Shown: piece by piece, positions 29,226 to 51,155 of the stretch
How positions within the stretch are numbered: the stretch's first letter is position 1
How the letters are laid out: each line of letters starts with the position of its first letter
Assembly (NCBI RefSeq): GCF_000720425.1
Contig: NZ_JOAJ01000001.1
Span: 434,001-498,000, forward strand
Source of the DNA: Nocardia rhamnosiphila NBRC 108938
Lineage (GTDB): Bacteria > Actinomycetota > Actinomycetes > Mycobacteriales > Mycobacteriaceae
Length of the DNA: 64,000 nt
Direction of reading: 5' to 3'
The notes under the pieces: generated by a model
What the model was told of the DNA's origin: nothing
Seen by the model: the letters and a program-made list of their open reading frames with translations, nothing else
Database searches by the model: none
Translations under genes and position numbers: made by a program

Positions 29226-29447
29226 GCGGGGTGGCCGAGGAGGCCGAGCCGGTCGTTTCCGCGTTCCGCGCGGGCATCAACTTCCGGGCCGTATGTCCGC
29301 AGGAGACAGTGGCGCCGGATCGGCCAAAGATGTTGGCCTGGAACATGTCCCGGTAGTATGCCGCAGCATGTCCACACAACGAATGCCAGGCCGTCCCGCC
29401 GCAGGCCGAACGGGACACACCGCGGCACCGTGCGGGGGAGTCACGCG

Positions 29448-30701
29448 TTGAGCAATGCAGATCCGGGTTCGCAGAGGGAATCCCTGATCACGCACGGGCC
29501 CGCGGTAGCCGCCGAATCATATGTTCGGCTGGACACCCCCACGTTCGCGGCCGATCCGCACCGCGCGTACGCAGATATGCGACATCATGGCCCGTTGGTG
29601 CCGATCGAGCTTTCTCCGGGTGTGCCGGCGACGCTCGTGATCGGTTACCAGGTGGCCATGCAAATCCTCAACGACGAGGCCCATTTCCCCGCGGACCCAC
29701 GCCGATGGGAGAAGAACGCCCCCTCGGATTCCCCGATGCTGCCGATGTTGGGCTACCGCCAGAATGCGCTGCGCACCGCAGGTCTGGAGCACGAGCGATA
29801 CCGGCGCACCATCATCGCGGCGTTGGACACCGTCGACATGCACAAGGTTCACGGCGCAGTTGCCCGGGCCGCCGAGGGACTGATCAACGACTTCTGCGAG
29901 CGCGGTACCGCCGACCTGCGAACGGACTACGCGTATCCGTTGACTTTCCGGGTGCTGAGCGAACTGATGGGCTTTCCCGAAGACGCCGCGGCCGCGGCGT
30001 ATCACGGGATGGCGGCGATGCTGGAGGGAGTGGGCGCCGAAGAAGGGCAGCAGCGTTTCGTCGAGGCTCTGATCGGGGTTGTCGAGCAGAAGCGGGCCGA
30101 GCCGGGCGACGATTTGACCTCGGAGCTGCTGAAACACCCGGACGGGCTCGATGCCATGGAGATGGTGAATCAGGCCGCGCTCCTGTTCTCGATGGGTACG
30201 GAGCCGACCTGCAATCTCATTCTCAATGCGCTGCTGCTGTTGATGACCGACGAGCAATACGGGGGTGAGGTCCTCAGCGGTGCCATGGCCACCCGGGACG
30301 CCATCGATGCGGTGCTGTTCGAGGATCCACCGCTGGCGAATTGGAGCGTGAGCTACCCCAGGCAGCCGCAACTCGTCGGCGATGTGTGGCTGCCGGCCGA
30401 TCAGCCGGTGGTCATCAGCTTGGCCGCGTGCAACAACGATCCCAGCGTTGTAGGCGGTGGTGACCGCAGGGGCAACCGGTCGCACCTGGCATGGGGAGCC
30501 GGCCCGCACGGCTGCCCGGCCCAGAGCCTCGCCCAGACCATCGCCTCGCAGGGCATCGACCTGCTACTCGATGCCCTGCCGGATATTCGGCCGAAAGTAT
30601 CCGCGCAGCAACTGCCTTGGCGGCAGGGGCAGTTCCACCGTGCCCTGGCGGCACTACCGGTCGAGTTCCCGGCGTGCCCGCCGATGCGTCTCGCCTGGTA
30701 G
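29448..30701 (+). CDS. Second cytochrome P450 lacking ExxR (paralogue of the one at 5.6 kb)
   Basis: 417 residues from TTG, with GGGGGAG 7 nt upstream; like its paralogue the protein starts MSN. Haem loop HLAWGAGPHGCPAQS, Cys356. The K-helix ExxR position reads AVLF before DPPLANWSVSYPRQP. Unlike the other copy, the I-helix keeps an acid-x-Thr (MGTEPTCN). The two proteins share long blocks (VPATLVIxYxxAxxILNDxxHFPADPRxW and PLANxxxxYPRQP). A CYP157-like member by motif; conservon partners are absent. It is convergent with the Baeyer-Villiger-type monooxygenase across a strong terminator hairpin. Confidence 0.88.
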   Translation: MSNADPGSQRESLITHGPAVAAESYVRLDTPTFAADPHRAYADMRHHGPLVPIELSPGVPATLVIGYQVAMQILNDEAHFPADPRRWEKNAPSDSPMLPMLGYRQNALRTAGLEHERYRRTIIAALDTVDMHKVHGAVARAAEGLINDFCERGTADLRTDYAYPLTFRVLSELMGFPEDAAAAAYHGMAAMLEGVGAEEGQQRFVEALIGVVEQKRAEPGDDLTSELLKHPDGLDAMEMVNQAALLFSMGTEPTCNLILNALLLLMTDEQYGGEVLSGAMATRDAIDAVLFEDPPLANWSVSYPRQPQLVGDVWLPADQPVVISLAACNNDPSVVGGGDRRGNRSHLAWGAGPHGCPAQSLAQTIASQGIDLLLDALPDIRPKVSAQQLPWRQGQFHRALAALPVEFPACPPMRLAW

Positions 30702-30712
30702 AGGTGACGATG

Positions 30713-30742
30713 GGTGGCGGGCGCCATGCGGTGCCCGCCACC
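30713..30742. terminator. Bidirectional terminator between P450 and monooxygenase
   Basis: Perfect 10-bp arms GGTGGCGGGC (30713-30722) and GCCCGCCACC (30733-30742), extendable inward by a G-T pair and two G-C pairs to a 4-nt loop. It sits between two convergent stop codons. Confidence 0.7.
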
Positions 30743-30754
30743 GGTAGTGCACCG

Positions 30755-32398
30755 TCACTGCGTCAGAGTGAAACCGTCGTAGTCGTCGGCGGCGACCTGG
30801 TCGCACTTTTCGCGATACGCTCCGACGCCGCCGATGTATGCGTACATCACCCTCGGCTTACCGGGCACATTCGATCCCACGTACCAGGAGTCCACCTTCG
30901 GATAGAGCGTCATATCGCCGACCTCGCCGACGTGCCGCGTCCATTCCTGCTCCGCCTCGGTCTCGGCCTCCATGACCGTGACGCCCTTGGATCGCATCGC
31001 TTCGATCGCGTCCGATACCCAGTCGACGTGCTGCTCGATGGACACCATCATGTTCGACAGGACCGACGGGCTGCCCGGGCCCGTGATCGTGAAGAGGTTC
31101 GGAAAGCCCGCCACGGTGAGACCGAGGTAGGTGACGGGCCCGTCGGCCCACTTCTCCCGCAGCGATGCACCATCCCGGCCGCGAATGTCGATCGCGCCCA
31201 GCGCACCGGTCATCGCGTCGTATCCGGTGGCGTAGATGATGTCATCGAACTCGAAACTCTCCTGCGTCGTCTCGAGTCCGGACGCGGTCACCTCGGTGAG
31301 CGGGGTCGTGCGAACGTCTACGAGCCGGACATTGGGACGATTGAAGGTCTCGTAGTAGTCCGTCCCCAGGACCGGGCGTTTGACGCCGAAGAGGCCGGCG
31401 GGCTGAAGCAGCCGGGCGACAGCCGGGTCCGTCACGATCTCGGCGATTCGGTCGCGAATGAACTGGGCGGCGGTCTCGTTGGCGGCTTCGTCGGCGAGTA
31501 GGTCCGTGAATCCGACGAGCATGCTGACCAGTTCGCTGTCCTTGTCGCTCCACACTCTGCGGTAGAAGGCATTTCGTTCGTCTTCGCTCACCTCTAGCGC
31601 CCCCTTGGTGGCTTCGGGTTGCGCGATGCCGAACGACGATTCCCGGTTGGCCTTGCGCACCTCGCGGTAGCGAGACTTGATCCCGCGCTGGAATTCGGGA
31701 TCGATCGCGTGATTGCCGGCGGGAAGAACATAGTTCGCGGTCCGCTGGAACACGGTGAGTTGCTCGGCCGATTCGGCGATGAGCGGAATAACCTGCACCC
31801 CGGAGGAACCGGTGCCGATCACCGCGACCCGCCGGCCGGTGAAGTCCACCTCCTGCGCGGGCCAGTTGCCGGTGTGGAAGCTGCGCCCCCGGAACGTATC
31901 GATGCCCGGAACTTCCACCATCTTCGGCGCCGACAGACAGCCTGTCGCCATGATCGCGTACCGCGCCGAGACGACCTCGCCCTGATCGGTCGTGATCCGC
32001 CACCGCGCGGCGGACTCGTCGTAGACCGCGGCGGTGACGCGGGTCCGCAACTGCACGTCCTTACGCAGATCGAAACGATCCGCGACGTGGTTGATGTAGC
32101 GGAGCAACTCCGGCTGCGGCGGCAACTTCTCGGTCCACTCCCACTCCTGCTCGAGCTCGGGGTCGAAGGAGTAGTTGTAGTACACGCTTTTCACATCGAC
32201 GCGTGCGCCCGGATAACGGTTCCAGTACCAGGTGCCGCCGAGTCCACCGCCCGCCTCGTACACCTGCACCGAAAGGCCGAGTTCGCGCAACTTGTACAGC
32301 ATGTGGAGGCCGGCGAATCCGGCTCCGACGACGACTGCGTCGATCTCGCGGGCCTCCTGCCCGGTCGAGGATACGGAATGCTCGGAGGTCGTTGTCAT
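30755..32398 (-). CDS. Flavin-containing Baeyer-Villiger-type monooxygenase
   Basis: 547 residues from the ATG at 32398 (AGG 8 nt upstream). FAD site VVVGAGFAGLHMLYKL near residue 24, GGTWYWNRYPGARVD, then the Baeyer-Villiger fingerprint FxGxxxHxxxWP as FRGRSFHTGNWPAQEVD, followed by the NADPH site VAVIGTGSSGVQVIP and the conserved IYATGYDAMTGALGAIDIRG. The length matches the cyclohexanone-monooxygenase class. It inserts oxygen next to a carbonyl (ketone to ester/lactone) using NADPH and O2; the substrate is unknown. It is followed by a terminator and is not clearly in an operon. Confidence 0.92.
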   Translation of the reverse strand: MTTTSEHSVSSTGQEAREIDAVVVGAGFAGLHMLYKLRELGLSVQVYEAGGGLGGTWYWNRYPGARVDVKSVYYNYSFDPELEQEWEWTEKLPPQPELLRYINHVADRFDLRKDVQLRTRVTAAVYDESAARWRITTDQGEVVSARYAIMATGCLSAPKMVEVPGIDTFRGRSFHTGNWPAQEVDFTGRRVAVIGTGSSGVQVIPLIAESAEQLTVFQRTANYVLPAGNHAIDPEFQRGIKSRYREVRKANRESSFGIAQPEATKGALEVSEDERNAFYRRVWSDKDSELVSMLVGFTDLLADEAANETAAQFIRDRIAEIVTDPAVARLLQPAGLFGVKRPVLGTDYYETFNRPNVRLVDVRTTPLTEVTASGLETTQESFEFDDIIYATGYDAMTGALGAIDIRGRDGASLREKWADGPVTYLGLTVAGFPNLFTITGPGSPSVLSNMMVSIEQHVDWVSDAIEAMRSKGVTVMEAETEAEQEWTRHVGEVGDMTLYPKVDSWYVGSNVPGKPRVMYAYIGGVGAYREKCDQVAADDYDGFTLTQ

Positions 32399-32982
32399 CG
32401 TGGGACCTGCCTTTCGATGAGTCGCCGTGGGAGACACAGCTGTTCGGTTCAACTACGGGGCGAGTCGGCAGTTACCTGGTCGAGGGAAGAGCTGGCGTGA
32501 GATGGTGGTCGGACATTGGAGACGATGACGCCGCAGAAGGTTCTTGCTCCTCCCTCGTGTCGCTGCAGCCCGGTCGATGTCACGAGCTGATCGGTGCGCG
32601 GACAAGACTCGCCGAGCGTCAGTTTTCCAGACCGGTACACGTTGCAGATCGGCGGGACTCGGTTGTGCGCGTTGATGTTTCCGCGCGGCGCCCGCATTTG
32701 CCGGGCATCACAAACGCGAGCAGGTCGATTGCATGGGGTTGCAGAATAGGACTTGCCCTGCCGTCGTTACGACTGTCTCCGCGCGGCAGCGAATCCGTCG
32801 ACAGCATCGAGACTCCGAACCACAGCGTGATGTCCGGTCGGCAGAAGCTGTATCCGGCGTCCGCGATTTCGGCCGGGGCTTTCTGATGTGCGAGCTCCGA
32901 GTCGAGTTATCGCGCGGTCGACTCGATTGCCATGACGATGGGTTGTCGGCAGGGGTGCCGGGTTGATCCCGGGACGCCGTGC
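32399..32982. other. Non-coding or decayed region
   Basis: 584 bases from the monooxygenase start to the SDR fragment. It must contain the monooxygenase promoter. Base composition is less GC-rich than the flanks and no frame shows family resemblance; short ORFs here are arginine/serine-rich and read as chance frames. Given the gene fragments that follow, it is probably decayed DNA. Confidence 0.45.
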
Positions 32983-33558
32983 TCAGGAGTCGGTTGTTCC
33001 GCTGCTCTGTGCCAGGGCCTGGGGGCCGTATCGGGAGGCGATCAAGGCCCAGGGGTCGGCGTAGGGGCCGCGGCGCTCGATGCGCCGCTGCAGCGCCAGT
33101 GTTGTGCGTATCACCGGCCGTAGGAGGGGGCCGGTCGTCCGGAGGATTGCGCGCAGCAAGCGCGGCTGGGCCTCGGCGATCCAGGCGACCGTCTGCGGCC
33201 AATCGTGCTGTTGGAAGTCGAGGAGTGCCTGCGATTCCCTGGTATCGAACCAACCGGTGAAGGCCCATCCCCGGTCGTCGCCGGGATCGCCCGGCAAGCT
33301 CGCGGATGGTCCGAGCCGGCCGATACCCATCGCTTCGAATATGGAGTCCTCGACGTCGCGATGGGTGTGGGCGTAACTGTCGTTACCGGCGACGAGCAGC
33401 ACTTTGCCGCTGATTGCGTCGCGGCGGTCGACAGCGTTGGCGAATGCCAGTGCGGCGTCGCGGGCGTCCACGCCGTGCAGCCGATTGTCACCGGGGGTCG
33501 CGCGGATGAGCACCAGATGGTCGGTGTTCAGGCCGGCGGTGGTGTCGGGGGACAGCAC
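32983..33558 (-). pseudogene. C-terminal fragment of an extended SDR/NAD-dependent epimerase
   Basis: 191 residues from GTG: VLSPDTTAGLNTDHLVLIRATPGDNRLHGVDARDAALAFANAVDRRDAISGKVLLVAGNDSYAHTHRDVEDSIFEAMGIG corresponds to the second half of an extended short-chain dehydrogenase (RPxGVLSPD and HGVDARDAALAFANAV blocks). The Rossmann nucleotide-binding half (GxxGxxG, YxxxK) is absent. The frame continues a few codons upstream (RFPG) and then meets, at about 33570, an AveC-like fragment in the opposite direction, so the 5' half was lost at a rearrangement junction. An expressed shortened protein is possible but would lack the cofactor site. Confidence 0.68.
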
Positions 33559-33569
33559 GCCCGGAAACC

Positions 33570-34030
33570 GGCAGCCGAGCGGGACCGTCTACATCTGGGC
33601 GTCGCTCGGCGCGCTGATCCCGACGCTCCAGGTGTACGTGTGGATCAGATGGATCATCGGCCCTTATTTCGAGCGGGTGCCCACCGGGCCGAGCGACCCG
33701 CCCATACTCATGAAGACGATCCTGAGCATCTGGACGGCCGGCGTCCTGATCGGTCTCCCCTTCGCCATCTACTGGTGGATCATCAGGCCGTGGTGGTGCG
33801 AGCGCCGGATCACCCTGGACGCCATACTGCTGGTGTCCACGGGCCTGATGTTCTTCCAGGACCCCTTCCTGAACTACCTGAACACGTGGTGCACCTACAA
33901 CACCTGGATGTTCCATCCCGATCTGCCGATGCCACGCCAGGACTCCGGCTACCTCGACAAGGACGGTGAATTGGTCCTTCCGGACGGAGCCGAGGTCCCG
34001 AAGATCGTGCCGTTCGAACGGGAGAACTGA
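33570..34030 (+). pseudogene. Internal fragment of an AveC-like (spirocyclase family) membrane protein
   Basis: From about 33580 the + strand reads GTVYIWASLGALIPTLQVYVWIRWIIGPYFERVP...PILMKTILSIWTAGVLIGLPFAIYWWIIRPWWCERRITLDAILLVSTGLMFFQDPFLNYLNTWCTYNTWMFHPDLPMPRQDSGYLDKDGELVLPDGAEVPKIVPFEREN and stops. This is the N-terminal to middle part of AveC-family membrane proteins, with two or three hydrophobic helices; relatives are about twice as long. Upstream of 33580 the frame is arginine/serine-rich noise antisense to the SDR fragment. Both ends are therefore truncated. Confidence 0.68.
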
Positions 34031-34248
34031 TATGCCGGCCAGGGCCACAGCTGTGGGTTACCGTCACGTGCAGGCGCCGTTCTGCCCCGCGCCCAACAAC
34101 AAGGCAGGGGTATTTCGCCACGCCTCCTGCCAGGGACTTCCGGTCCTGTCCTGCTCCGGACGGCGCATCACGAATGCCCTGCCGTGCAGGAGCAGGTGAA
34201 CCGTTCGGGTCGACGGAGTAGCCGCCTTTCTGCTCGAGTCGATCCCGG

Positions 34249-35208
34249 TCAGTCCGGGACGATGACGGCCCGGGTTCGTCCCTGATGCGCCCAGGCTTCG
34301 CCGACGCGGCCGAGCGGGTACACGGTGTACGGCGCGTCGAAGGTGCCGTCGGCGAATCGGGCCAGGATGCCGGGGAGTTCGGCGATCATCTGCTCCTTGG
34401 AGACCGAGCCCTTGCCGCTGCCGCCGACCCGGATCCGTCGGCTGCGCAGTAGTGCTGCGGGCAGCGCCGCCTCGGCTCCGGCGAGCGAGCCGATCTGCAC
34501 GTAGTCGACCGCCGCGCTGTCGTCGTCCGGGCCGGATCGTCCCAATGCCGCGAAAGCGGCCTCGGCGACGGGGCCCCACACGTAGTCGAGGACGAGGGTG
34601 GGCTGTGTCTCGGTGACCGCCGTAGTGAGGGCGGCCGCCCAGGCGTCGGGTGCGCCGGATGCGAGCGCAACGGTGACCACGCCCGGGCCGCGCAGCTGCT
34701 CCAGCGCGTCGTGGTCGCGCCCGACCGCGACCACCTGTTTCGCGCCGAGGAACCGCGCTGCCCGCACCGCGAGACCACCCGACATGCCGGTCGCGCCGAG
34801 CACCAGCACGGTGCCGAGTTCGCCCGCCTCCTCGCGCCGGGCGACCAGCGGCATCCAGCCCGACAGAGCGGGATTCATACCGGCGGCGACCGCGAGCGGA
34901 TCGGCGCCGGCGGGCAGCTCCCTGTCGAATGGCGTAACCAGCCATTCCGCCATGGTTCCCCATGGCGACCGGGCGAAGCCCGTGTATACCAGCCGCCCGT
35001 TCTCGGTCCGGGCCACCGCGTCGACGCCCGGCACGAGGGGATATACCCGGCCGCTGCCGTAATGGCGACCGGCGGCCATCCCGCGGACGACGTGGTGCAA
35101 ACCCGCGCCCACGAGCCTCAGCGGCGCCCGGCCGGGCCGCTGTTCGGGATCCGGGAAATCCGCGCAGACGGGTGTCGTGTCGGGGGTTTTCACGACTGCA
35201 GCACGCAT
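34249..35208 (-). CDS. MDR-superfamily alcohol dehydrogenase/quinone oxidoreductase-like protein
   Basis: 319 residues. The N-terminal GroES-like part (RAAVVKTPDTTPVCADFPDPEQRPG...YPLVPGVDAVARTENGRLVYTG) lacks the zinc-binding Cys/His of classical alcohol dehydrogenases. The Rossmann domain has TVLVLGATGMSGGLAVRAARFLGAKQVVAVGRDHDAL (GxxGxxG-like). It belongs with zinc-free NADPH quinone reductase/enoyl reductase relatives. Divergent from a TetR gene with two operator-like palindromes between, so it is probably that regulator's target. Start ATG at 35208. Confidence 0.88.
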   Translation of the reverse strand: MRAAVVKTPDTTPVCADFPDPEQRPGRAPLRLVGAGLHHVVRGMAAGRHYGSGRVYPLVPGVDAVARTENGRLVYTGFARSPWGTMAEWLVTPFDRELPAGADPLAVAAGMNPALSGWMPLVARREEAGELGTVLVLGATGMSGGLAVRAARFLGAKQVVAVGRDHDALEQLRGPGVVTVALASGAPDAWAAALTTAVTETQPTLVLDYVWGPVAEAAFAALGRSGPDDDSAAVDYVQIGSLAGAEAALPAALLRSRRIRVGGSGKGSVSKEQMIAELPGILARFADGTFDAPYTVYPLGRVGEAWAHQGRTRAVIVPD

Positions 35209-35218
35209 GACACACTCC

Positions 35219-35267
35219 TTAACTAAGTTAAATTGCGATGCCGACCACTGTCCCTGAACTTTGTTAA
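35219..35267. promoter_or_regulatory. Two TetR operator-like palindromes between MDR and TetR genes
   Basis: TTAACTAAGTTAA at 35219-35231 (perfect, arms TTAAC/GTTAA) and TGAACTTTGTTAA at 35255-35267 (one mismatch), centres 36 bp apart, in the 69-bp gap between divergent starts. The first site covers the MDR ribosome binding region, the second ends just before the TetR start. AT-rich palindromes stand out strongly in this GC-rich context. Confidence 0.75.
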
Positions 35268-35277
35268 GGTGTCAACC

Positions 35278-35913
35278 GTGGCCAAGGGAATCACCCGGGA
35301 GCAGATCGTGGCGGCGGCCCTCGAACTGCTCAACGAACACGGCATGGACGCCCTCACCGTCCGTGCGCTCGCGTCCCGGCTCGAGGTGAAGGCCCCCGCC
35401 CTGTACTGGCACGTCCGCAACAAACAGGAACTGCTCGACGAGATGGCCACCTTCGTCATGCGCCGCGTCACCGACGCCCTCGCGGCGATCCCGCCCGGCG
35501 GCGAATGGCGTGACGCCATAGCCGCCTACGCCCGCGTCCTGCGGTCGGAGTACCTGCTGCACCGGGACGGGGCGCGTATCTTCAGCGGTACGCGTATCGC
35601 CGACCCCGCGGTCGTGAAAGCGAAAGAACCCTGGCTCGAGCGATTGACCGCGACCGGGTTCTCACTGACCGAAGCAGACGACACCCTCGATCTGGTCACC
35701 GCCTTCGTGGTCGGCTTCGTCATCGAGGAGCAGGAGCGCGGTCGGTCGACCGGCAGCGACCCCGCGCGATACTCGCTCGCCGGACGTGACGCCTGGCTCG
35801 GCGAGGGCGCCGAACTCGTGAAAGCCGCCGGGCATCTCCGCGACGACGGCGACCGGAGGTTCGAACGGCAGCTCGGCGTTCTCCTCGACGGGCTCGCGGC
35901 CCGGCTGCGCTGA
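35278..35913 (+). CDS. TetR family regulator (TetR_C_1 type)
   Basis: 211 residues from the GTG at 35278, which yields AKGITREQIVAAALELLNEHGMDALTVRALASRLEVKAPALYWHVRNKQELLDEMATFVMRR, the helix-turn-helix of TetR/ActII-like repressors with the KAPALYWHVRNKQEL block. The C-terminal domain (~75-205) is the TetR_C_1 type seen in tetracycline- and antibiotic-responsive repressors (VLRSEYLLHRDGARIFSGTR; VTAFVVGFVIEEQERG). AAGG lies 9 nt upstream. It very likely represses the divergent MDR gene and itself through the palindromes at 35219-35267. Confidence 0.92.
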   Translation: MAKGITREQIVAAALELLNEHGMDALTVRALASRLEVKAPALYWHVRNKQELLDEMATFVMRRVTDALAAIPPGGEWRDAIAAYARVLRSEYLLHRDGARIFSGTRIADPAVVKAKEPWLERLTATGFSLTEADDTLDLVTAFVVGFVIEEQERGRSTGSDPARYSLAGRDAWLGEGAELVKAAGHLRDDGDRRFERQLGVLLDGLAARLR

Positions 35914-35969: not shown

Positions 35970-36013
35970 CCCCATCCGACGACTGCGGGTCGACCGGTTT
36001 TCGCCGGGACGGG

Positions 36014-39000
36014 TCACGCTCCGGTGTGGAGGTGAGCGGCCCACAGCGAGGGGGTGGCGGGAAAGGTGTCGCGCGCCGCCCGGACAGCGTGGTGCAGTGC
36101 GTGGGGCGCGCGGCCGATATCGACCACCGTCGAATCGGGCGCGGTACGCAAGGCCGTGTAGAAGTCGTCGGCGATGCGGATCGCGATATCGTCGTCGATT
36201 GTCCACAGAGTGCCGATGACGTGGGGATATCCGGCGAACTGGAAAGCGGATGCGAGGTGGATGGACTCGTCGACCAGTTGAGTGTCGGTGCTGAGAGCGG
36301 TATCGCAGGCAGACAGATACGCCAACCGTGCCCGGTCGAGATGGATCGGGGCGAGTGCGGCGACGGTGAGCGGCGTCGTGGCGTGATCGTGTAACAGCAG
36401 CCGACTGCGTGAGGGGTCGTCGGGGTCGGTGGCTCCATGGCAGGCGAAGTGCACGATGGCGCGTTCCGGCAGCAGATGCAGCACGGTGTCCGTTGTCGGA
36501 AGCGTATGTTCGGCACTCGGACTCGCCGGGGCTCGGAGGTCGTTCACCTCGTCGGGCTCGGTGAGGACGGTGGACCCCGGCAGATGCGTGGCGACCAGAT
36601 GGGCCTCGTCGAGCACGTAGTGCAGCCGCCCGTCGATCCCCGGAGTTGTCGGCATGGCCACGACGAGGGCCTGCCCGGGCGTGTCCGGGTCTATGGTGGA
36701 CGAGTGCCGGCGTCGCGCGTATTCCAGAGCGGCGACGGTGGGCGTATAGGAAGAGATGACGCGGTCCATCACCGTCGCTGCGTCGGACCGGGACGGGTGA
36801 GTGTGATAGCCGGCCGCGTGGATCGGCAGTTGGCCCAGCAGTCCGCCCGGCGCCCACCACACCCGCGGTCCGGACCGGTCGGGCCCGATCGGCCGATGAA
36901 AGCCCAGCGCCTCGAGCACTGGACCGGTTGCGTTGTCCCACAGCCATTCCAGGGTGGCACTCAATTGTCGTTGAGCGGCTTGCCGTTCGGATCCCGTGAC
37001 GCCGTGCGCGGCGGTATTCAGCGCCTCGCGGAAGGCGCGGGTTCGATCGCACACCGCCTCCACGGACAGGGCGGGCAGCGGCAGGCAGGAGATTCCGTCG
37101 GCGGTGAGCAGAAGCGCGTCGCTACCGTACCGGCCGATGCTGAAGGCCACCACCGGCCCGTGGCCGGCCTGCGCGACCAGTTGCCCGGTCGACGGTGGCA
37201 GGGCGAAGGTGTCGAATCCGGGTTGCGTCCGGATACGGGTGAGTACCTCCTCGAACTCACGCGCCAGCCGGTGCCGATCCGGAGCCCGGTCGGCGGAACC
37301 GCCCGGAAAGCGGCCGGCGCCGGATCGATTGAGCTGTTCACGCAACCGGACGAAGTCACCACCGAGGTCCGGATGCCGGTCCATGAGCTCGGTGGTATCC
37401 GCGCGGACCTGGACCGTTCGGTTCAGCAGTACGGCCCGGCCGGCCTCGAGCAAGCGCAGCGCCAGATCCGCCCGGTCGTTCTCGGGTACAGCCGGATTCC
37501 GGAGCGCCAGTGCCGCGGCGTCGGCGGCGAATCCGCCCCACCGGCCGATGGCGTACTGCTGGTCGGACCGTTCCAACTGCCGTGGCGCGATCTCGGGAAG
37601 CAGTCGGATCGCGTGCTCGATCAACTCGGCCGCACGGTCCGGCTGCGTGGCCGCGACCAGGTCGGCGGCCGCGCGGGCCGCCAGCATCCGGGTCGCCGGC
37701 GGTGCCACAGTGGACCGCTGCGCGTCCAGAAATGCTGCGGTGGCCTCATCACGGTCGCGCGTGGTGTCCGTTAGCCAGAACCGCATCATCAGTGCGGCCC
37801 CGAACCTGATCAGCCGTTGGGCGTGCGCGGGGTGATCGGCGGGTGTGATATCCGCGGCCCGCCGGAGCATATCGATGGCCTCGACGAGATCTGCCGGAGT
37901 GCCCGTCCGGTCGAAGCGAGTCCGGATGGTGAGCCCGAGGTTGCTCAGCATGGCCGGCAGGTCGGGGTGATCGGCGGGTGTCGCGGCGACGGCCTGCCGG
38001 AACATATCGATCGCCGCATCCAGATCGGCTGTTTCGGTCGTCTGCTCGAATCGGTCCGACAGGGCGTTTCCGAGATTCATCAGCAGCAGGTTCATTGTGC
38101 GGTAGCCGGTCGGGGCCGAGTCCACCGCGGCGCGCAACCTGGTGATGGCCTCGTCCAGGTCCGGTCGTGTTCCCGTGCGCTGGTATCGATGCCGCAGCGC
38201 CGTCCCCAGCGTCGTGAGCCTGCCGGCTCGGGTGCTGCTGTCTCCCGCTGTGCCGGTGACAGCTCGTCGAGCCATCCGGATGGCTTCGTCCAGATCCGTC
38301 ATGGAACCGGTTCGATCGAACCGATCGATCAGCGCCCGGCCGAGGCTGCTCGTCCGGTCGGGGTAATCGGGATCCTCCGCGAGCGTGGCCGTGACCGCTT
38401 CCCGGCCGATTCGGATCGCCTCGTCCAGATCCGCCGGATTCCCGGTGCGCTCGAAGTGGATGCGCAGTGTGAATCCCAGACCGAACAGGTTCCGGCCACG
38501 ATCGGGATGACCGGCCGGGGTCGCTGCCACTGCCTGTCGTCCCGCGTCGACCGCCTCGTCCAGATCCGATAACGTCCCGGCCCGTTCGAACCGGCCCAGC
38601 AGCGCCCCCCGGAGGGTGTTCATGGAGTCGGCGCGGCCCGGATCGCCGGTAGGGGTCCCGGTCACCGCCTGTCGCACGAGCCGAATGGCTTCATCGGCAT
38701 CGGCCCGTTCGCCGGTCCGCTCGAAGCGGGACCCCACGCTCTGGCCCAGGACATGCCGGATCTCGGTCCGCAGACTGTCGGGAAGCGTTGCGGGCATGGC
38801 GGACATGGTCTGCTCGCCGAGCCGGATGGTCTCGTCCAGATCGGCCGCCATCCCCGTCCGCGCGTACCTGTCCGCGTGCGCCGCGGCAAGGTGTACCAGC
38901 CGCACGCAGAGCAGCGGATCGTCCGCGGCCGTCGCCGCCACCGTCCGGTGTCCCAGCGCGATCGCTTCGTCGAGGTCGGCGAGTTGCCCGGTTCGCTCGA

Positions 39001-39547
39001 ATCGGCCCAGTAGCACAGCACCGAGCCTGTCGGTCCTGTCGGCGAGATCCGGATCGCCGTCGACTGTGCGGGCGACCGCTTCCCGCAACAGCAGGACCGC
39101 GTCGTCCAGGTCGGTAGGGTCTCCCGAGTTCTCGAACCGGGTATGCAAACTGCTCCCCACGGCTACCAGCAGGACGGCACGGAAGGGGAGATCCGCCGGG
39201 ACGACATCCAGTGTCCGGCGACCGAGCAGGATGGCCTCGTCCAGATCGGCTGCCGCATTCGTCCGGCCGAACCGGAATACCAGCGCCCTGGCCAGGTGGT
39301 ATCGAGCGCCGGGATATGCGGGGTGGCCGACCGGGGTGGCGGCGACGAGCTGTCGGCCCATGCGGATCGCGTCGTCCAGTTCGGCGACGGACTTCGCTCG
39401 ATTCAGACGTCTTCGGAAGGCGTCCAATGGGCCGAACGGGCCGATTCGGGCGACGGTGGCCAGCGCACCCAGCTGCTGCCAGAGACCCTTGGCGGTGGTG
39501 AAGAAGCCGGATCCGCCGGTGCCGCCCTCGCGCTCACGATCTGTCAT
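36014..39547 (-). CDS. TPR-CHAT caspase-like protease
   Basis: 1177 residues. Residues ~54-610 are about thirteen tandem helical TPR-like repeats of ~45 residues, each with a RFERTGxxADLDEAIxLxRQAVAATPxxHPDR core. Residues ~640-1177 are the CHAT protease domain: VVAFSIGRYGSDALLL, WWAPGGLLGQLPIHAAGYH, then catalytic His1037 in VHFACHGATDPDDPSRSRLLLHD and Cys1081 in LAYLSACDTALSTDTQLVDESIHLASAFQFAGYPHVIGTLW. No membrane helix or signal peptide. It is divergent (67-bp gap) from a two-gene operon for a small Cys-rich protein and a membrane protein. CHAT proteases act in bacterial conflict systems and controlled cell death, where repeats sense a trigger and the protease cleaves a partner; that role here is an inference. 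Confidence 0.92.
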   Translation of the reverse strand: MTDREREGGTGGSGFFTTAKGLWQQLGALATVARIGPFGPLDAFRRRLNRAKSVAELDDAIRMGRQLVAATPVGHPAYPGARYHLARALVFRFGRTNAAADLDEAILLGRRTLDVVPADLPFRAVLLVAVGSSLHTRFENSGDPTDLDDAVLLLREAVARTVDGDPDLADRTDRLGAVLLGRFERTGQLADLDEAIALGHRTVAATAADDPLLCVRLVHLAAAHADRYARTGMAADLDETIRLGEQTMSAMPATLPDSLRTEIRHVLGQSVGSRFERTGERADADEAIRLVRQAVTGTPTGDPGRADSMNTLRGALLGRFERAGTLSDLDEAVDAGRQAVAATPAGHPDRGRNLFGLGFTLRIHFERTGNPADLDEAIRIGREAVTATLAEDPDYPDRTSSLGRALIDRFDRTGSMTDLDEAIRMARRAVTGTAGDSSTRAGRLTTLGTALRHRYQRTGTRPDLDEAITRLRAAVDSAPTGYRTMNLLLMNLGNALSDRFEQTTETADLDAAIDMFRQAVAATPADHPDLPAMLSNLGLTIRTRFDRTGTPADLVEAIDMLRRAADITPADHPAHAQRLIRFGAALMMRFWLTDTTRDRDEATAAFLDAQRSTVAPPATRMLAARAAADLVAATQPDRAAELIEHAIRLLPEIAPRQLERSDQQYAIGRWGGFAADAAALALRNPAVPENDRADLALRLLEAGRAVLLNRTVQVRADTTELMDRHPDLGGDFVRLREQLNRSGAGRFPGGSADRAPDRHRLAREFEEVLTRIRTQPGFDTFALPPSTGQLVAQAGHGPVVAFSIGRYGSDALLLTADGISCLPLPALSVEAVCDRTRAFREALNTAAHGVTGSERQAAQRQLSATLEWLWDNATGPVLEALGFHRPIGPDRSGPRVWWAPGGLLGQLPIHAAGYHTHPSRSDAATVMDRVISSYTPTVAALEYARRRHSSTIDPDTPGQALVVAMPTTPGIDGRLHYVLDEAHLVATHLPGSTVLTEPDEVNDLRAPASPSAEHTLPTTDTVLHLLPERAIVHFACHGATDPDDPSRSRLLLHDHATTPLTVAALAPIHLDRARLAYLSACDTALSTDTQLVDESIHLASAFQFAGYPHVIGTLWTIDDDIAIRIADDFYTALRTAPDSTVVDIGRAPHALHHAVRAARDTFPATPSLWAAHLHTGA
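37718..39388 (-). repeat. Tandem TPR-like coding repeats within the CHAT gene
   Basis: About thirteen consecutive repeats of roughly 135-145 bp encode the ADLDEAI-containing helical pairs. They are diverged at DNA level but recurrent strings (for example gcctcgtccagatcggc on the + strand) repeat many times, making this segment prone to recombination and to assembly error. Confidence 0.8.
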
Positions 39548-39614
39548 ACCGCCCTCCCCGGATGAGTACCGACGCTAGTCACCCGACGGCCTGAAGCACA
39601 ACGTTTTCGACGAT

Positions 39615-40082
39615 ATGATCGAACTGCCGCGCTGCACCGCCGAGGCCGTGAGCGTGGCGTCTGCCGGATTGCTCGTCGTCCCAGGGGGTTGTTTGCTGCC
39701 GTCGTCACAAGATGCCGGGCGGATCGCCGCCGGATTGGCTTATCTGTGTGAGCATCTGGAGGATATTCGTAGCGTGCTCGGCGATGACGGGGCCGATCAC
39801 GGAACGCCGCTCAACCGTCTGCTCGCCGTCGTGCACTCGGACGGCGTCACCGATTTGGGTGTCGCGCTCGATGCCGTCCACACCGCACTACAGGCCGGCG
39901 GCGACGCGCGCGGGCTGTACGGACATCACCGCGCCGCCACACCGATCGGTGTGCACCACCTCGAGATCGTCTACCGCTGTCCGCTCGCACGGTGCACGGG
40001 CCGTACCGCCGCCGAGGTCCACGACGACCCGCCACGATGCGCCCTCACCGAGCGGGAGCTCTTGCGAGAGCGACTTTCCTGA
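39615..40082 (+). CDS. Small protein with C-terminal Cys motif, CHAT partner
   Basis: 155 residues from ATG; unrecognised as a named family. The first ~120 residues are predicted mixed alpha/beta without a signal peptide (LLVVPGGCLLPSSQDAGRIAAGLAYLCEHLEDIRSVLGDDG). The C-terminal ~40 residues read VYRCPLARCTGRTAAEVHDDPPRCALTERELLRERL: a CPxxxC pair and a PPxC, resembling the zinc-ribbon-like tails of small actinobacterial proteins encoded beside NTPase or CHAT conflict genes (resemblance judged by eye). The stop is immediately followed by the ATG of the membrane-protein gene (TGAATG), so the two are translationally coupled, and the CHAT gene is divergent. It may be an adaptor or a protease substrate. 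Confidence 0.7.
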   Translation: MIELPRCTAEAVSVASAGLLVVPGGCLLPSSQDAGRIAAGLAYLCEHLEDIRSVLGDDGADHGTPLNRLLAVVHSDGVTDLGVALDAVHTALQAGGDARGLYGHHRAATPIGVHHLEIVYRCPLARCTGRTAAEVHDDPPRCALTERELLRERLS

Positions 40083-41012
40083 ATGGGCGGATTGTGGGGC
40101 GAACTGACGAAGAAGCTCGCCGAGAAATGGCTGTCGCTGCTGGTTCTGCCCGGTGCCCTCTATCTCGCGGTCGCCGGTGCCGCATTCGTTCTCGGACACG
40201 GTCATGCGCTGGATGTGGGACTGCTCGCACGCACGATCACCTCCCATGCCGAAAACCCGGCATTCACCGCCCCGGGCGCGGGAATCATGCTTCTGCCGGC
40301 GATCTCGGCCGGTGCGGCCGCGGTCGGGCTCGTCGCCCAGGCCGCCGGAACCCTTACCGAACACATCGCGCTGGCCACGGAGTGGGCCGCCTGGCCGTGG
40401 CCGGCCCGGCATCCGGCGCGATGGTCGATGGGTCGGCGAAAACGTCGCTGGGACACCGCCGAGGCCGTCTACCACCGGGAGCTCCGGAAGACGCTGGCTC
40501 CCGACCCCGCGGACCGGCCGGATTCCGCGCTCCGGCATCGCGCGGCCCGCACCCGGAACCGGATCTCGGTGGAGCGGCCGGAACGGCCCACCTGGAGCGG
40601 TGATCGAGTACATGCCGCGGCTGTGCGCCTCGACCGCGACCACCACCTCGACCTCGCCACCGTATGGCCGTCGGTGTGGCTGATCCTTCCGGATCCCACC
40701 CGCGATCAGATCGGGGAGGCGCGAACCGCTTTGGCGCGGGCGACCACGCTGCTCGCCTGGTCGGTCCTGTATTCGGTCCTGACGGTCTGGTGGTGGCCCG
40801 CCGCCCTGATCGGTGTCGTCACCGCGGCAACGGCCCGGTATCGAATCCGCACCGCAACCGATGCCTACGCCACTCTCCTGGAAACCGCGAGCCGGTTGCA
40901 CGCCGTTTCTCTCGCCACCCAACTCGGTATCGAGCACGCGGGCCCGCTCACGCCGCAACTCGGTCGCCTGCTCACCCGCCACCTCGGCAGCCCGCGTCCG
41001 TCCACCGATTGA
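40083..41012 (+). CDS. Membrane protein of the CHAT locus
   Basis: 309 residues, start ATG directly after the preceding stop. Two hydrophobic segments lie near the N-terminus (LSLLVLPGALYLAVAGAAFVLG and GIMLLPAISAGAAAVGLVAQAAG) and a pair near residues 222-260 (TLLAWSVLYSVLTVWWWPAALIGVVTAATARY), with a basic cytosolic loop between (SMGRRKRRWDTAEAVYHRELRKTLAPDPADRPDSALRHRAARTRNRISVERP). No known domain recognised. As the coupled partner of a Cys-rich protein beside a CHAT protease, it could be a membrane effector released or activated by proteolysis; this is inference from layout only. Confidence 0.75.
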   Translation: MGGLWGELTKKLAEKWLSLLVLPGALYLAVAGAAFVLGHGHALDVGLLARTITSHAENPAFTAPGAGIMLLPAISAGAAAVGLVAQAAGTLTEHIALATEWAAWPWPARHPARWSMGRRKRRWDTAEAVYHRELRKTLAPDPADRPDSALRHRAARTRNRISVERPERPTWSGDRVHAAAVRLDRDHHLDLATVWPSVWLILPDPTRDQIGEARTALARATTLLAWSVLYSVLTVWWWPAALIGVVTAATARYRIRTATDAYATLLETASRLHAVSLATQLGIEHAGPLTPQLGRLLTRHLGSPRPSTD

Positions 41013-41193
41013 GCGAACCGGCATCAGCCTCTGGCGTGCATTGCTTTGTAGTGCCCCCCGCGTCCGAGCGCATCGGTCGCGCCGGCGCCCACCCGAAGTG
41101 TGAGCAGTTCCGCAGCCCGGCCGGGCCGACTCGGAGGCACCATGTGGGGATGGGTGGTTATCGAAAGGCAGCACCACGAATCCCGGTTCCGTT

Positions 41194-41849
41194 CTAGTCG
41201 ATCAGGTAGAACAGACCCCATCCGTGCTGCTGGGACCGGATGAGTATTTCTCCCCAGTCCCGCAGCAGTCTCACGGCGCTGTCGAAATCCGGGAGCCAGG
41301 TGTCTTCGTCGAGTTGGGCGGTGACCGCCGGTCGCAGGTCTTCGATCCGGTCACGGCTGTGGCGCCAGAGTTGCGCCAGTTCGGCGACTTCGGCCGGCGG
41401 AAAACCGTAGATGCCTGTGGTGCTGCCGGGCCCCATGGCGGCCAGTTCGTCGCTTCCCTCGTCGGGGAGGAGGCGGCTGAGCCACGCGCCCAACGGCGCC
41501 AGTGTCTCCTTCGGTGCGTCGGCACGCTGGGCGGTGTGTTCCACCAGGTCCCGCAAGTAGAAGTGGGGTTTGTACGAACCGCCGGCGCCGATCCCACGAA
41601 ATACGCCTCTGGCGTACCACCGATCAACGATGGTCGGCCACCAGAGCACTCCGTCTTCGACGAGGTCGATCCGCGGAGCAAAACGGATTCGGGTTCGACC
41701 GCTACGGGCAGGTGGTGGTGAGAATTGGGGGAGTCGTAGGAATTGGGGAAGGGGAACAACAGGTCCCACATCTCGTCCGCACCCGATCGCTGCAGCGTTT
41801 CGGTCAGGCGCGCCCAATCGGCGACACCTACCCAGATATTCACGCCCAC
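41194..41849 (-). pseudogene. Frameshifted hypothetical gene (DUF1877-like layout)
   Basis: Two overlapping frames on the minus strand join into one protein. From the GTG at 41849: MGVNIWVGVADWARLTETLQRSGADEMWDLLFPFPNSYDSP; then, after a shift near the CCCCC run at about 41727-41733, the second frame continues SGRTRIRFAPRIDLVEDGVLWWPTIVDRWYARGVFRGIGAGGSYKPHFYLRDLVEHTAQRADAPKETLAPLGAWLSRLL and ends DFDSAVRLLRDWGEILIRSQQHGWGLFYLID. Neither half alone is complete. Either a real one-base indel or a sequencing error in a homopolymer. The family is a cytosolic protein of unknown function common in actinobacterial accessory DNA. Confidence 0.65.
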
Positions 41850-42513: not shown

Positions 42514-43197
42514 CTAGGTCAGCTCCATCAGCCCCCGGGTATCCCACGGCATCGGGCCGGTGGGGAAGCTGAACCGGACCATCCGGTGTGCAGGCGCCAC
42601 CTCGAAATGCGCCACGGCCGGCGGCAGGAACCCGCTGAGCATCTTCTCCAGCAGTGCGTTCAATCCGGACAGACGTGGTCGCAGCCGCACCTGCCAACAG
42701 TCGATCCGTCCTGCCGGGACCTCGACCGGGGCGCGCTGTTCGACCTTCGCGCTGAGCGGAATGTGTACCGAGAAGGCCAGCCAGCAGGCGAGGTTCTCCT
42801 CGGTGTGCTCGGTGAAATCGAGGCCGCGGAGCAGAGTGAGACCGGCGGCGAGCGGCATGAGGTCGGCCGGGAAGGGCGCGATCCCCCCACCGAACTGTAG
42901 ATGGGTGGTCCCCAGGAAGTTGGCTTCCTCCCTGCTCACCAGCCGGCCACCGGAACGGGTTTCGGCGCGGTAGGTGGAGGCCAGGAGGCGGCCCTCGACG
43001 CGTTGGAACCGCTGGTCCACAGTGATCGCGAATCTCCCGTTGGTGGAGGCGACCTGCACGGACGAGTGGTACTCGTCGCCGTCGTGGCCGATCGCGCTCA
43101 CGAGCTCGAGCGCGGGGGAGCCGTCCGCGACGCTCACGGTGTAGACGGACTTCTCTCCGTCCGGAATCTCCGGATCCCGGAAAATGCTGTCGATCAC
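42514..43197 (-). CDS. Unknown protein, third gene of the PKS-Pap operon
   Basis: 227 residues from a GTG that overlaps the Pap stop (GTGA), so it belongs to the lipid operon. It looks like an all-beta, lipid-carrier-like fold: alternating strands such as SVYTVSVADGSPALELVSAIG, RFAITVDQRFQRVEGRLLASTYRAETRSGGRLVSREEANFLGTTHLQFGG and ending HFEVAPAHRMVRFSFPTGPMPWDTRGLMELT, reminiscent of DUF3108-type barrels. No signal peptide, no membrane helix, no catalytic motif recognised. Position suggests a role in handling or modifying the PKS product. Confidence 0.78.
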   Translation of the reverse strand: MIDSIFRDPEIPDGEKSVYTVSVADGSPALELVSAIGHDGDEYHSSVQVASTNGRFAITVDQRFQRVEGRLLASTYRAETRSGGRLVSREEANFLGTTHLQFGGGIAPFPADLMPLAAGLTLLRGLDFTEHTEENLACWLAFSVHIPLSAKVEQRAPVEVPAGRIDCWQVRLRPRLSGLNALLEKMLSGFLPPAVAHFEVAPAHRMVRFSFPTGPMPWDTRGLMELT

Positions 43198-44594
43198 AGG
43201 GTTTCCTCCTGCGCCGCCACGCCGAAAACCGTCTTCAGCGTCCGTACATACCGGTCGACGGAATCGTGTGCCACCGGGGTGTCCGGGTAGATGACGCTGA
43301 GCGTGGTCTCGGTCGCCAGCCGGTTGATCCAGATCAGAACCTGTTCGGAAGCGGCGCGGTTGGCGTAGAGGCCGCATCCCGCCGCGTCGAAGAACTCGTT
43401 GCCGAGGAGTTCCCGGGCATCGACGTAGGAGATCATCGGGCAGGACCAGCCCGGTTCCACATCCAGATCGGAGTCGGCGGGCAGCAACTCCACCACGCGC
43501 TGGAACGAGGTGGGGGCCAGCCGCAGCCCGTTCTCGTAGGCGTGCTGCGCGAGTGTGACCACCCGGTCGAACGAGGCGGCGGCGAGTGGGAACGTCACCG
43601 GCAGCAACGTCACATACCAGCCGACCGAGGCGCGTTCCGCGGGACTGCTGCGGGTGCTCACCGGGGTCATGCCGAAGTAGTAGTCGCTGTCGATCAGTTC
43701 TCGTTCGGTCAGCGCCGCCGCGGCGAAGATCCCGCCCACGAACTCCGCGCCGTTGCGCCGGCAGCGTCGTTCGAAAAGGGAGGCGGTGGCCTCGTCGAAC
43801 AGCGTCACCGTGCGGTGCGCGCTGCGGTTGTACACATCGGTGCGCCGGCCCAGATCCAGCGGGAACGACGGCAATCTTCCGTCGTTCCCACGGATCAGTT
43901 CCAGCCATTTGCCGACCCCGGGCGAGGTGAGGGTCATCTGCCCGGTATAGGCCCGCTCGACCGTGCAGTAGTCCAGGTAACTGGCCGCCGGTGACAGCAT
44001 GTCCGGTGCCTCCGGCCAGACCTCACGGGTGTAGAGCAGGGCAAGGTCGAAGCCGGACAGATACTGCCCGAATCCGTCGGTGTGCAGGTGATCCACCGCG
44101 AGATAGACCGTGGTCGAACCCTCGCGTTCGATCGTGCCGAAGGTGAAGCAGTCCCAGTCGAACGGTCCGGGTGTGGTCTTCTGCACGTGGTCCACGACAG
44201 TACGGGGGTCGTCGATCCGGCCGCAGTCGACCGGCACGAACTCGACATCGCGCTCGGGTACCAGATGCCGTTCGAGCGCGCCGTCCGCGCCGATCCGGAA
44301 CCAGGTCCGGAAGGTGTCGTGCCGCAGCAGGAAGGCATTGACCGCGCGGGTCATCGCCTTTCGGTCGAGATCGGCGGTGGGTATCTCGGCGGTCACCACG
44401 CACAGCCCGGAATACCGGAACTCGGCCGCGGCGTGCCGGTGGGCCAGGCGCAGATACTGCTCCTGCTGGTGCGAGGGCGGGGCCGGGTGGGCCGGCGCCT
44501 GCCGGGCGCGCGTCACCGATTCCGGTGACGCCACCCAGCTGGTCAGCCGGCCCGGTGCCGGTTTCCAGTCATCGATCAAACCGAAGTCGACCAT
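43194..44594 (-). CDS. PapA-like polyketide-associated acyltransferase
   Basis: 466 residues from the ATG at 44594 (GAGGG 7 nt upstream). It is a condensation-domain-fold acyltransferase: VYLAVDHLHTDGFGQYL aligns with the HHxxxDG catalytic motif, with the first His replaced by Asp168 and the catalytic His169, Asp173 and Gly174 kept. The second motif DFGWG is degenerate (EPGWSCPMISYVD). Mycobacterial PapA proteins transfer PKS-made acyl chains onto sugars or diols, giving sulfolipid, DAT/PAT or phthiocerol esters. It lies 28 bp after the PKS gene and overlaps the next gene, so it is in the same operon; the PKS product is the probable acyl donor. Confidence 0.88.
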   Translation of the reverse strand: MVDFGLIDDWKPAPGRLTSWVASPESVTRARQAPAHPAPPSHQQEQYLRLAHRHAAAEFRYSGLCVVTAEIPTADLDRKAMTRAVNAFLLRHDTFRTWFRIGADGALERHLVPERDVEFVPVDCGRIDDPRTVVDHVQKTTPGPFDWDCFTFGTIEREGSTTVYLAVDHLHTDGFGQYLSGFDLALLYTREVWPEAPDMLSPAASYLDYCTVERAYTGQMTLTSPGVGKWLELIRGNDGRLPSFPLDLGRRTDVYNRSAHRTVTLFDEATASLFERRCRRNGAEFVGGIFAAAALTERELIDSDYYFGMTPVSTRSSPAERASVGWYVTLLPVTFPLAAASFDRVVTLAQHAYENGLRLAPTSFQRVVELLPADSDLDVEPGWSCPMISYVDARELLGNEFFDAAGCGLYANRAASEQVLIWINRLATETTLSVIYPDTPVAHDSVDRYVRTLKTVFGVAAQEETL

Positions 44595-44622
44595 GGTGCA
44601 CCCTCGTTTCGACGACTGCCGG

Positions 44623-47600
44623 TCACGATATGGCTCCCACCCGGACCGGCTCGGCGGCACTACCGGATACGGGCTTCGCGAGCGGCGCGATCGGGCCCGG
44701 ACCCGCCGGTTCGTTCGTCGCTTCCCCGGCAAGAATCAGCTCGGCCACCTTCGGCCCCGCCTGTTCCAGGCTGAACGAGCGGCCCATCTGCAGTGACATC
44801 AGATCGATGCCCAAGGTTTTGGTGACCCGGGCGCCGAGTTCCACTGCCATCAGCGAGTCCAGGCCGAGTTCGGGGACCGGGACCGTCAGATCGATGGATT
44901 CGACCGGGACGCCCATCACCACGGCGAGTTCCTCGGCCATCTTGCGGGCCACGAAAGCGCCCCGTCTGCCCTCCTCGATCGCGGCCACCTCGGCCCGCAA
45001 CCGGGCCATTTCCGAGGTGTCCTTCGCGGAGACCTGCGCGAGCGCGAGGGTGCGACCGGTGCGGGTCAGCTGGGGGAAGGTACCGGTCAGCTTGGCCCAA
45101 TCGGTCGGGATGACGGCCGCCCGCGAAGCACCCAGGCGCAGCACCTGTTCCAGGTAGGCGGTGGCGTCGGCCATATCGATCGGATCGAAGCCGACCAGAT
45201 CGAGGTACTTGACGGCGGTCTCGTCGGCGGCCATGCCACCGGACGCGCCGGACAGGTGTCCCCAGCCGATGCACAGCGCTCGCTCGCCCGACCGGGCCCA
45301 TTCCTGGGCCATCGTCTCCACGGCCACATTGGCCGCGCAGTAGTTGTACTGGCCGTAGATGCCGTACATGGAACCGCCGGAGGAGCACAGGACGAACATG
45401 TCGAGTGTGATCCCGGCGTCGGCCACCGCCTGATGCAGGATCCGGGCGCCGTGCACCTTGGGCCGGTAGACGATATCCAGCTCGTGGTAGGTCATGGCGT
45501 CCAGGCGGTTGTCGGCCACCGATCCGGCCGCGTGGAACACCCCGCGCAGCGGCTGCCCGCCCGTATGTGCCCGGTCCACGATCGCGGCGATCGCCACCGG
45601 ATCGGTGACATCGGCCCGTTCTTCGATCACCTCGACCCCGGCGGTCCGCCACGCTTCGAGCTGCCGGCGCGCCTCCTCGGTACTCGCACCGCTGCGCCCG
45701 ACCAGGACCAGCCGCCGGGCACCGCGCAGCGTGAGCCAGCGTCCGATGGCCATGCCGAAGCCACCGAAACCGCCGGTGATCAGATAGGTACCGGCTGCTT
45801 CGATCTCGACGCCGGGCAGATACGGCCGCACCGAGGGCCGCGGTGAATCCATTCGCAGTGCGATCCGGCTCAGGCCGGTCGAGCGGATGGTCTCCTCGAA
45901 TGCGCTCGCCACATCGTCGGTCTCGAACGATCGGTACGGCAAGGGTGTGTATATGCCCGCGAGCACCTTCTCGTAGACCCGCTGCAACAGCGCGATCAGC
46001 CGCTGGGCGTCGACCGCGACCAGGCGGTCCAGGTCCATCGAGTAGTACGCGACATTCTTGTCGAAGTTGGCCAGCTCCAGCAGGCCACCGGTGTAGATAT
46101 CGGCCTTGCCCACCTCGACGATGCGCCCGAATTCGGCGACGGCGTGGAAATTCTGGCGCAAGATTTCGCCCGGTGCGCTGCTCAACACCACTTCGACGCC
46201 CTTGCCCTCGGTGAGGGCCAGTACATCGTCGACGAAGTTCAGCGAGCGCGAGTCGATGGCGTGATCGGCGCCGAGGGAGAGCACATGCGCTCGGCGTTCG
46301 TCGGTGCTCGCGGTGCCGATGATCCGCGCCCCGCGGTCCTTGGCGACCTGGATCGCGGCCGTGCCGACACCGCCCGCGGCGCCGTGGATCAGCACCGTCT
46401 CACCCGGTTGCAGCCGGGCCAGATCGTGTAGCGCGTACTCGGCGGTGCCGAACGCGATGGTGCTGGTGCAGAATCCGGGATCGGCGTCCGCGGGCAGTGG
46501 GATGGCCCGGGCCCGGTCGACCACGACGAACCGCTGCATCATGCCCTTGGTGGCGATCGCGACCTGATCGCCCACCGCGATATCGGTGACCCCCGCGCCG
46601 ACCCGTACCACTTCGCCGACGCCCTCCATACCGGGGACGGTGCCGAAGTAGGTCGGGGCCAGTTCCCGCTCCCCGAGCAGGCCGATGACCTTCAGCGGAT
46701 CCTTGTAGTTCAATCCGACGACCTTCATCCGGACCTCGAGCCGGCCCGGCTCCGGAGCCGGGCGCGGGCACCGGCGCCACGCCAGGGCGGACAGCACCCG
46801 GCTGCGCGGCATCTCCAGCGCGAAGTTGACCTCGGGGTCGGTCAGGGGTTCGGCGGTGTCGAGTTGTTCCAGACGCTCGGGCAGCGGCTTGGTCACCAGC
46901 GGCGTCCACCGGGTGCCGCCGCGCAGCGCGACCTCGTCGGTGTTATCGCGCCAGAACGCGCCGGGAACGGCGAGTTCGGTGACCAGTACGGCGGTTTCGG
47001 TATCCGGCTCGACATCGATCAGCCGCCACCGCAGCGCGGTCTGCTCGTTCAACAGCACCCGGTGCGCCCCGGCCAGCGCGGCCTGCCCGGGGTCCGGCGC
47101 GGCCGGATCGTCCGGTACCGCGAACGCGCGTTCGGTCACCAGGGTGACGTGACATTCGCCGTCACCGAAGACGCTGCCGGGGCCCTGCTCGTCATCCGGC
47201 GGATGCGCGAAGATGTCGATCGCCACCGCCACCTGCTCCAGCGCCCACAGGGCAGCGATATCGTCGGCGACCGTGCCCGCGACCACCACCACGTGCAGCC
47301 GGTCGCAGGCGTCGGCCCGGGCCGCCTCGAGTGTCGCGGCCAGACCGGCCGCCGGCTCCTCGCCCGGCAATCCGACGAGGTGCAGCCGGGATCCGGGAAT
47401 CGCCTCGGCCAGCGCCTCCGCGCGGCTACCGGCGCCGCCCAGCGCGAGCACCACGGTGCTCACCGAACCCTGCGGCAGTGCCGCGGGATCGAGCGGGTCC
47501 CGCCGCTCCATGGTCTCGACGTAGTAGAACTCGGCCATGCGGCGCAGCGGGTCCTGCCCGGGCGTGAGCGCGCCGATCTGCAGGCCGCTCAACCGCATCA

Positions 47601-51024: not shown

Positions 51025-51155
51025 GCATATCCTCCCGAGTCGGAAGTAATTGAGAGCCAACGTGTTAAGGGCGAGCTACGAACCGGCCCGCGCACCTGGC
51101 GACGGCGTCAGCGTAAAGGTCGTCACAGGGTGGCCGACATGCTTCAGGGGCACTT

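Follow-up and report, generated by a model that had tools for sequence, protein, structure and literature searches.

Three adjoining genes, encoding a TPR-CHAT protein, a small Cys-ribbon protein and a membrane protein, were found in the window, that is, the whole 64,000-nucleotide stretch of Nocardia rhamnosiphila DNA that we analyzed, and our sequence comparisons support the view that they are one conserved, portable unit. The association of the three genes is far beyond chance. To our knowledge, partners are known for very few actinobacterial CHAT proteases. Published work already describes caspase-like proteases with a repeat arm in small actinobacterial modules, while this partner set appears to be new; in agreement with the sequence-only reading, which did not recognize the triad as a described system, it is absent from the libraries and the open-licence PubMed Central papers that we searched. 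The triad looks like a cell-death or defense switch, and the earlier interpretation of a conflict triad is partly supported.

Architecture of the three-gene cassette

The cassette (35985..41025) is delimited by the edges of blastn homology in three Nocardia species. It comprises the TPR-CHAT gene (36014..39547, minus strand, 1177 aa), the small zinc-ribbon-like protein gene (39693..40082, plus strand, 129 aa) and the membrane protein gene (40083..41012, plus strand, 309 aa), whose first base directly follows the stop codon of the small gene. The homologous segment covers window positions 35985-41025 in N. grenadensis (L008, 89.5% identity), 35971-41023 in N. sienata (L009, 91.0%) and 36001-41016 in N. 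pseudovaccinii (L010, 83.1%), so that all three genes are included each time and homology ends 4 to 43 bp beyond the outer gene ends; in N. sienata, similar letters continue slightly further to the left of the blastn edge. An oxidoreductase-TetR pair lies beyond the membrane gene in N. sienata, and the same pair precedes the CHAT gene in the window. The GC content of the cassette is 0.689, inside the range of 0.642 to 0.703 given by 5-kb sliding along the window.

The surroundings look like a lipid- or polyketide-type locus (29358-35913 and 42514-51060), with a P450-like gene (29358-30701) and a flavin monooxygenase-like gene (30755-32452) on one flank and a PapA-like condensation protein and a large polyketide synthase (44623-51060) on the other; names beyond Pfam matches were read from translations. 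A 207-aa open reading frame (41194-41817, minus strand) without a Pfam match sits just outside the cassette and outside the homology with the three Nocardia relatives.

The CHAT protease domain (36020..36958, minus strand; residues 864-1176) matches PF12770 with 133.6 bits against a curated cut-off of 24, and no other gene in the whole 7.66-Mb source genome (G000) has a PF12770 match. Sequence alignment places the catalytic His1037 at 36437-36439 and Cys1081 at 36305-36307 (both minus strand), which verified the intact dyad that had been proposed. Of 76 aligned CHAT sequences, 73 cover the dyad and all 73 have it; the other three are open reading frames truncated at a contig end, with gaps at these positions. 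The CHAT protease therefore looks catalytically intact wherever it is covered. In front of it are 13 TPR-like repeats (37613..39382, minus strand; residues about 56-645) with a period of 45 residues and one unit of 47, matching the earlier estimate of about 13. This count comes from 12 motif matches plus one unit within the 90-residue interval starting at 463, and the autocorrelation peaks at 45, 90 and 135. TPR_10 scores above its cut-off in three stretches of the protein, and TPR-S (PF20308) reaches 33.5 bits (cut-off, 27.6) over residues 330-430.

The nearest relatives of the CHAT protein among the matches listed are from Nocardia, with an N. rhamnosiphila protein 99% identical over 100% of the length. 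A protein of the fungus Fusarium nematophilum (P0177) is also among the closest relatives listed, being 40% identical over 96%. Against three close relatives, the dN/dS of the whole CHAT protein is 0.31-0.33, that of the protease domain is 0.18-0.26 and that of the repeat segments 61-200 and 481-620 is 0.47-0.68, while repeat segment 341-480 (0.21-0.28) is as constrained as the protease domain. Evolution is thus faster in parts of the repeat arm than in the protease domain. Since no value reaches 1, purifying selection prevails overall, with a constraint that is relaxed or locally diversifying; this fits a sensor role without proving it.

The small gene had been called as 155 residues from position 39615, but it probably starts at the TTG at 39693, which is preceded by AGGGGG and gives a product of 129 aa. 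We prefer this start because most relatives begin there and because the reading frame is lost in the upstream DNA of N. pseudovaccinii, where counting the indels in 39615-39693 by eye gave a total not divisible by three. Seven of the 11 proteins listed have 123 to 132 aa and start near residue 27 of the 155-aa frame; two of 153 to 155 aa, besides the window's own, and one of 102 aa make up the remainder. The divergent gap to the CHAT start codon would therefore be 145 bp (39548..39692) instead of the 67 bp given before; this region is similar in the three Nocardia relatives, and the promoters may sit in it.

The ribbon-like tail (39972..40082, plus strand; C122, C127 and C142 in 155-aa numbering) reads CPLARC...PPRC, and both this tail and the coupled membrane gene agree with the original description. 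Across 70 loci plus the window, C122, P123 and C142 are kept in 71 of 71 sequences and C127 in 70 of 71; C45, retained in 66 and replaced in five, is a candidate for the fourth zinc ligand of the window's clade. Because divergent members end in CPxGDYxWYR...PxCxxH, the family can fairly be read as a Cys/His zinc ribbon. The model of the ribbon protein (pLDDT 74.3, moderate) is helical in its N-terminal part and ends in a short beta tail, and its dN/dS against the three close relatives is 0.29-0.55.

The membrane protein model is confident (pLDDT 88.7) and all helical. Hydrophobic stretches at about residues 12-49, 59-92 and 215-251, the last of which spans a helix break near 234-238, can be read as four predicted transmembrane segments with both the N and C ends inside. 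Between them lies a large loop (40365..40727, plus strand; about residues 95-215) that had been described as basic and cytosolic; the basic character was borne out by 23 K/R versus 16 D/E in residues 96-215, and its position in the cytosol is inferred. The most conserved part of this putative cytosolic loop is ERPxRPTWSGDR, represented in the window by ERPERPTWSGDR (40572..40607, plus strand; residues 164-175), where each of P166, R168, P169, T170, W171, G173, D174 and R175 is shared by at least 90% of the 96 sequences aligned. The protein has at least 501 relatives at an E value of ≤0.01, and all 120 listed relatives with an organism name are actinobacterial; dN/dS against the three close relatives is 0.29-0.31. 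Pfam, NCBIfam and PADLOC assigned no family to the ribbon or the membrane protein, and in comparison with PDB structures neither model convincingly resembles any solved structure. No recognized pore-forming fold was found for the membrane protein model, and gasdermin is absent among the 25 of 32 weak Pfam families listed for 96 membrane-protein homologues.

Co-occurrence and spread of the triad

Conservation of the triad elsewhere had been set beforehand as a test, with a lack of co-occurrence as the refuting outcome, and this refutation failed. Scanning one genome per species with a profile of the membrane protein, we kept the best 80 of 90 places, which gave 79 distinct actinobacterial loci. 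The membrane gene is immediately preceded by a ribbon gene in 78 of them, 70 detected by profile (≥40 bits) and 8 by eye as an upstream open reading frame ending in CPx(3-5)C...C (L062, L072, L073, L076, L077, L078, L084 and L085); the only locus without it, L061, holds part of the membrane gene. Among the 70 profile cases, the ribbon gene and the matched start of the membrane gene are separated by -4 to 35 bp in 69 and by 128 bp in the remaining one, L065. A CHAT gene of ≥200 bits is near the membrane gene in 73 of the 79 loci, most often upstream and divergent (51) or downstream on the same strand (15), more rarely upstream on the same strand (4) or downstream and convergent (3). In one further locus, L014, the CHAT stretch is truncated by the end of the contig, and five loci are without such a CHAT (L012, L053, L061, L062 and L074). 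In a clustering with low sensitivity for short genes, no further gene family is common to more than seven loci. In the loci compared, then, the ribbon and membrane genes are an almost inseparable pair that CHAT accompanies in varied orientation. The protein distance matrices of the triad also correlate (r of 0.75, 0.68 and 0.80 over 70 and 63 loci, with species relatedness uncontrolled), and none of 2,000 permutations was as high.

Two Streptomyces loci have two CHAT genes near one membrane gene (L016:8998-15368 and L066:10013-18887), and L016 has a second, partial membrane-protein match.

CHAT domains are abundant in the class, being present in 162 of the 296 genomes surveyed. The membrane protein is present in 27, all within those 162 (hypergeometric P of about 3e-8, relatedness ignored), three of the 27 matches being partial and weak (G132, G161 and G332). 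Among the matches listed, a CHAT match adjoins the membrane-protein match within about 5 kb in 25 of the 27 genomes, 23 of these CHATs looking intact and 2 being fragments (G268 and G316). As for the other two, G299 has the ribbon-membrane pair and no CHAT within 20 kb, and G332 was covered by a 3.2-kb region and the CHAT matches listed. In 20 regions of 20 kb taken from membrane-gene genomes, CHAT was found in 19 (one fragmentary) and the ribbon gene in all 20 (12 by profile, 8 by eye), whereas the 19 control regions drawn from these genomes contained none of the three genes. That three unrelated genes with no common function merely happen to be neighbors would suit their varying orientation and genomic surroundings, but this explanation, to which we give almost no credence, is refuted by the co-occurrence counts (19/20 for CHAT and 20/20 for the ribbon gene versus 0/19 in controls).

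The distribution of the unit is patchy. The small protein occurs in 6 of 60 genomes in a sample of near relatives, its own genome included, the weakest match (E of 3e-4) being in another genus, while G120 has three membrane-protein matches in one genome. The set is carried on two Streptomyces plasmids examined, and phage records and viral contigs gave no match. At least five genomes have a CHAT that scores 278 to 370 bits on the profile built from the triad and yet is without the pair, and therefore such CHATs must have other outputs too. Two such CHATs, L192:6733-10446 and L194:9601-13353, themselves contain hydrophobic segments (6 and 2, respectively, by a simple hydropathy count), as if a membrane part were built in.

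The predicted enrichment in defense islands was not seen. In a small test, PADLOC families numbered 26 among 137 neighbor proteins in 20 triad regions versus 46 among 133 proteins in 19 control regions of the same genomes. This result, together with a cassette GC within the window's range, would fit a regulatory module for envelope stress or development rather than conflict, in which CHAT would cleave the pair and thereby steer transcription or a cell-wall programme; such a role is also suggested by the Csx29-Csx30 system, which ends in a sigma-factor response (PMC10028731), and by the matching genomes, all actinobacterial and many of them filamentous. The presence in 6 of 60 genomes, the changing surroundings and the three copies in G120, however, suit an accessory module better, and we consider the regulatory role quite unlikely.

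A possible mechanism and its alternatives

Our working interpretation, which we put just short of an even chance, assigns trigger sensing to the TPR arm and makes the ribbon-membrane pair the target of CHAT, with a membrane effect as the result. A phage- or stress-derived trigger would be recognized by the solenoid of 45-residue repeats, and its binding would align the His-Cys dyad of CHAT. The ribbon protein would be seated on the membrane protein's basic, cytosolic loop and may serve as a docking platform or safety cap. Once CHAT had cut one of the two, loop or ribbon protein, the membrane protein would be free to perturb the membrane, and growth arrest or death of the infected or stressed cell would follow. 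Co-occurrence, dyad conservation, module edges, correlated distances and the faster-evolving repeats support this interpretation. Weighing against it are the lack of a recognized pore-forming fold and of defense-gene enrichment, the constraint on repeat segment 341-480 and the CHATs without the pair.

The roles could also be reversed. If the ribbon-membrane pair were a sensor or leash, it would hold TPR-CHAT at the membrane, detect envelope damage such as phage entry and release the protease to cut other proteins. CHATs found elsewhere without the pair, some with their own hydrophobic segments (L192 and L194), would suit such an arrangement, as would the membrane-sensor role ascribed to the EACC1-caspase system in PMC7159879. 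The ribbon and membrane genes nevertheless persist without a nearby CHAT in L012, L074 and G299, which is odd for a pure leash and expected if the pair is harmless until acted on, and the faster-evolving repeat arm already in CHAT would make a second sensor redundant. Because the pair is nearly unsplit and tolerates the absence of CHAT in a few genomes, and because triad-like CHATs exist without the pair, we favor CHAT acting upstream of the pair over the pair as a mere restraint on CHAT, and we regard the leash as rather unlikely.

The sharply bounded unit and its fixed partners make the question of substrate and output directly testable: there are two candidate substrates and one candidate effector, the conserved dyad can be mutated, and natural variants are numerous. 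Should the membrane protein prove to be the output, it would represent a protease-gated effector family unnamed in the libraries searched.

Comparison with known systems

Borvo is listed as a CHAT defense system in PMC10952713. Its BovA protein matches the window's CHAT region weakly (E of 0.0052, 13.8 bits over 85 residues), and the comparison was made with the BovA protein only. The actinobacterial EACC1-caspase system, in which its authors see a membrane sensor activating a caspase, resembles the triad in combining a caspase-superfamily protease with a membrane component, a small one in that system. According to PMC7159879, EACC1 has a single transmembrane helix, and the partner protein carries the caspase at its N terminus, followed by a variable C-terminal domain, whereas the window's membrane protein has several predicted transmembrane segments and its CHAT is C-terminal (864-1176 of 1177), behind the repeats. 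EACC1 is absent among the Pfam matches of both partners and the family tables listed (25 of 32 weak families).

Two other systems (PMC12881547 and PMC10028731) provide precedent for a TPR-CHAT acting on a partner encoded beside it. Csx29 of type III-E CRISPR (Craspase) shares with the window's protein a TPR arm followed by a C-terminal CHAT with a His-Cys dyad, and the TPR-CHAT protein gave sequence matches to its solved structures (7zoq, E of 1e-4; 7y9x, E of 1.8e-4). Csx29 cleaves Csx30 after allosteric activation (PMC10028731), a partner encoded beside it; the partners in the window are likewise encoded beside CHAT, and their cleavage is inferred. The window's CHAT scores 44.9 bits on the Csx29 family NF041237 of NCBIfam, below the cut-off of 300, and its partners are the ribbon and membrane proteins instead of Csx30, Csx31 and a sigma factor.

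In Podospora anserina, a TPR-bearing CHAT protease activates a fungal gasdermin within a two-gene cluster (PMC12881547). Here, too, a TPR-CHAT protease gene stands beside a membrane protein gene, whose action on the membrane is conjectural in the window; the differences are an all-helical integral partner, with no gasdermin match among the 25 Pfam families listed, and a third, ribbon-like gene. As analogues of our interpretation, the fungal cluster would offer the protease beside a membrane effector and Csx29 the allosteric protease with one specific substrate, while the output would be an unrelated helical membrane protein. The triad might even be a new type of bacterial protease-gated membrane-effector system, in which a repeat-sensing CHAT switches a hitherto unrecognized integral effector by way of a zinc-ribbon adaptor, convergent with fungal CHAT-gasdermin death and spread through Actinomycetes as a movable unit, which we hold to be possible but doubtful.
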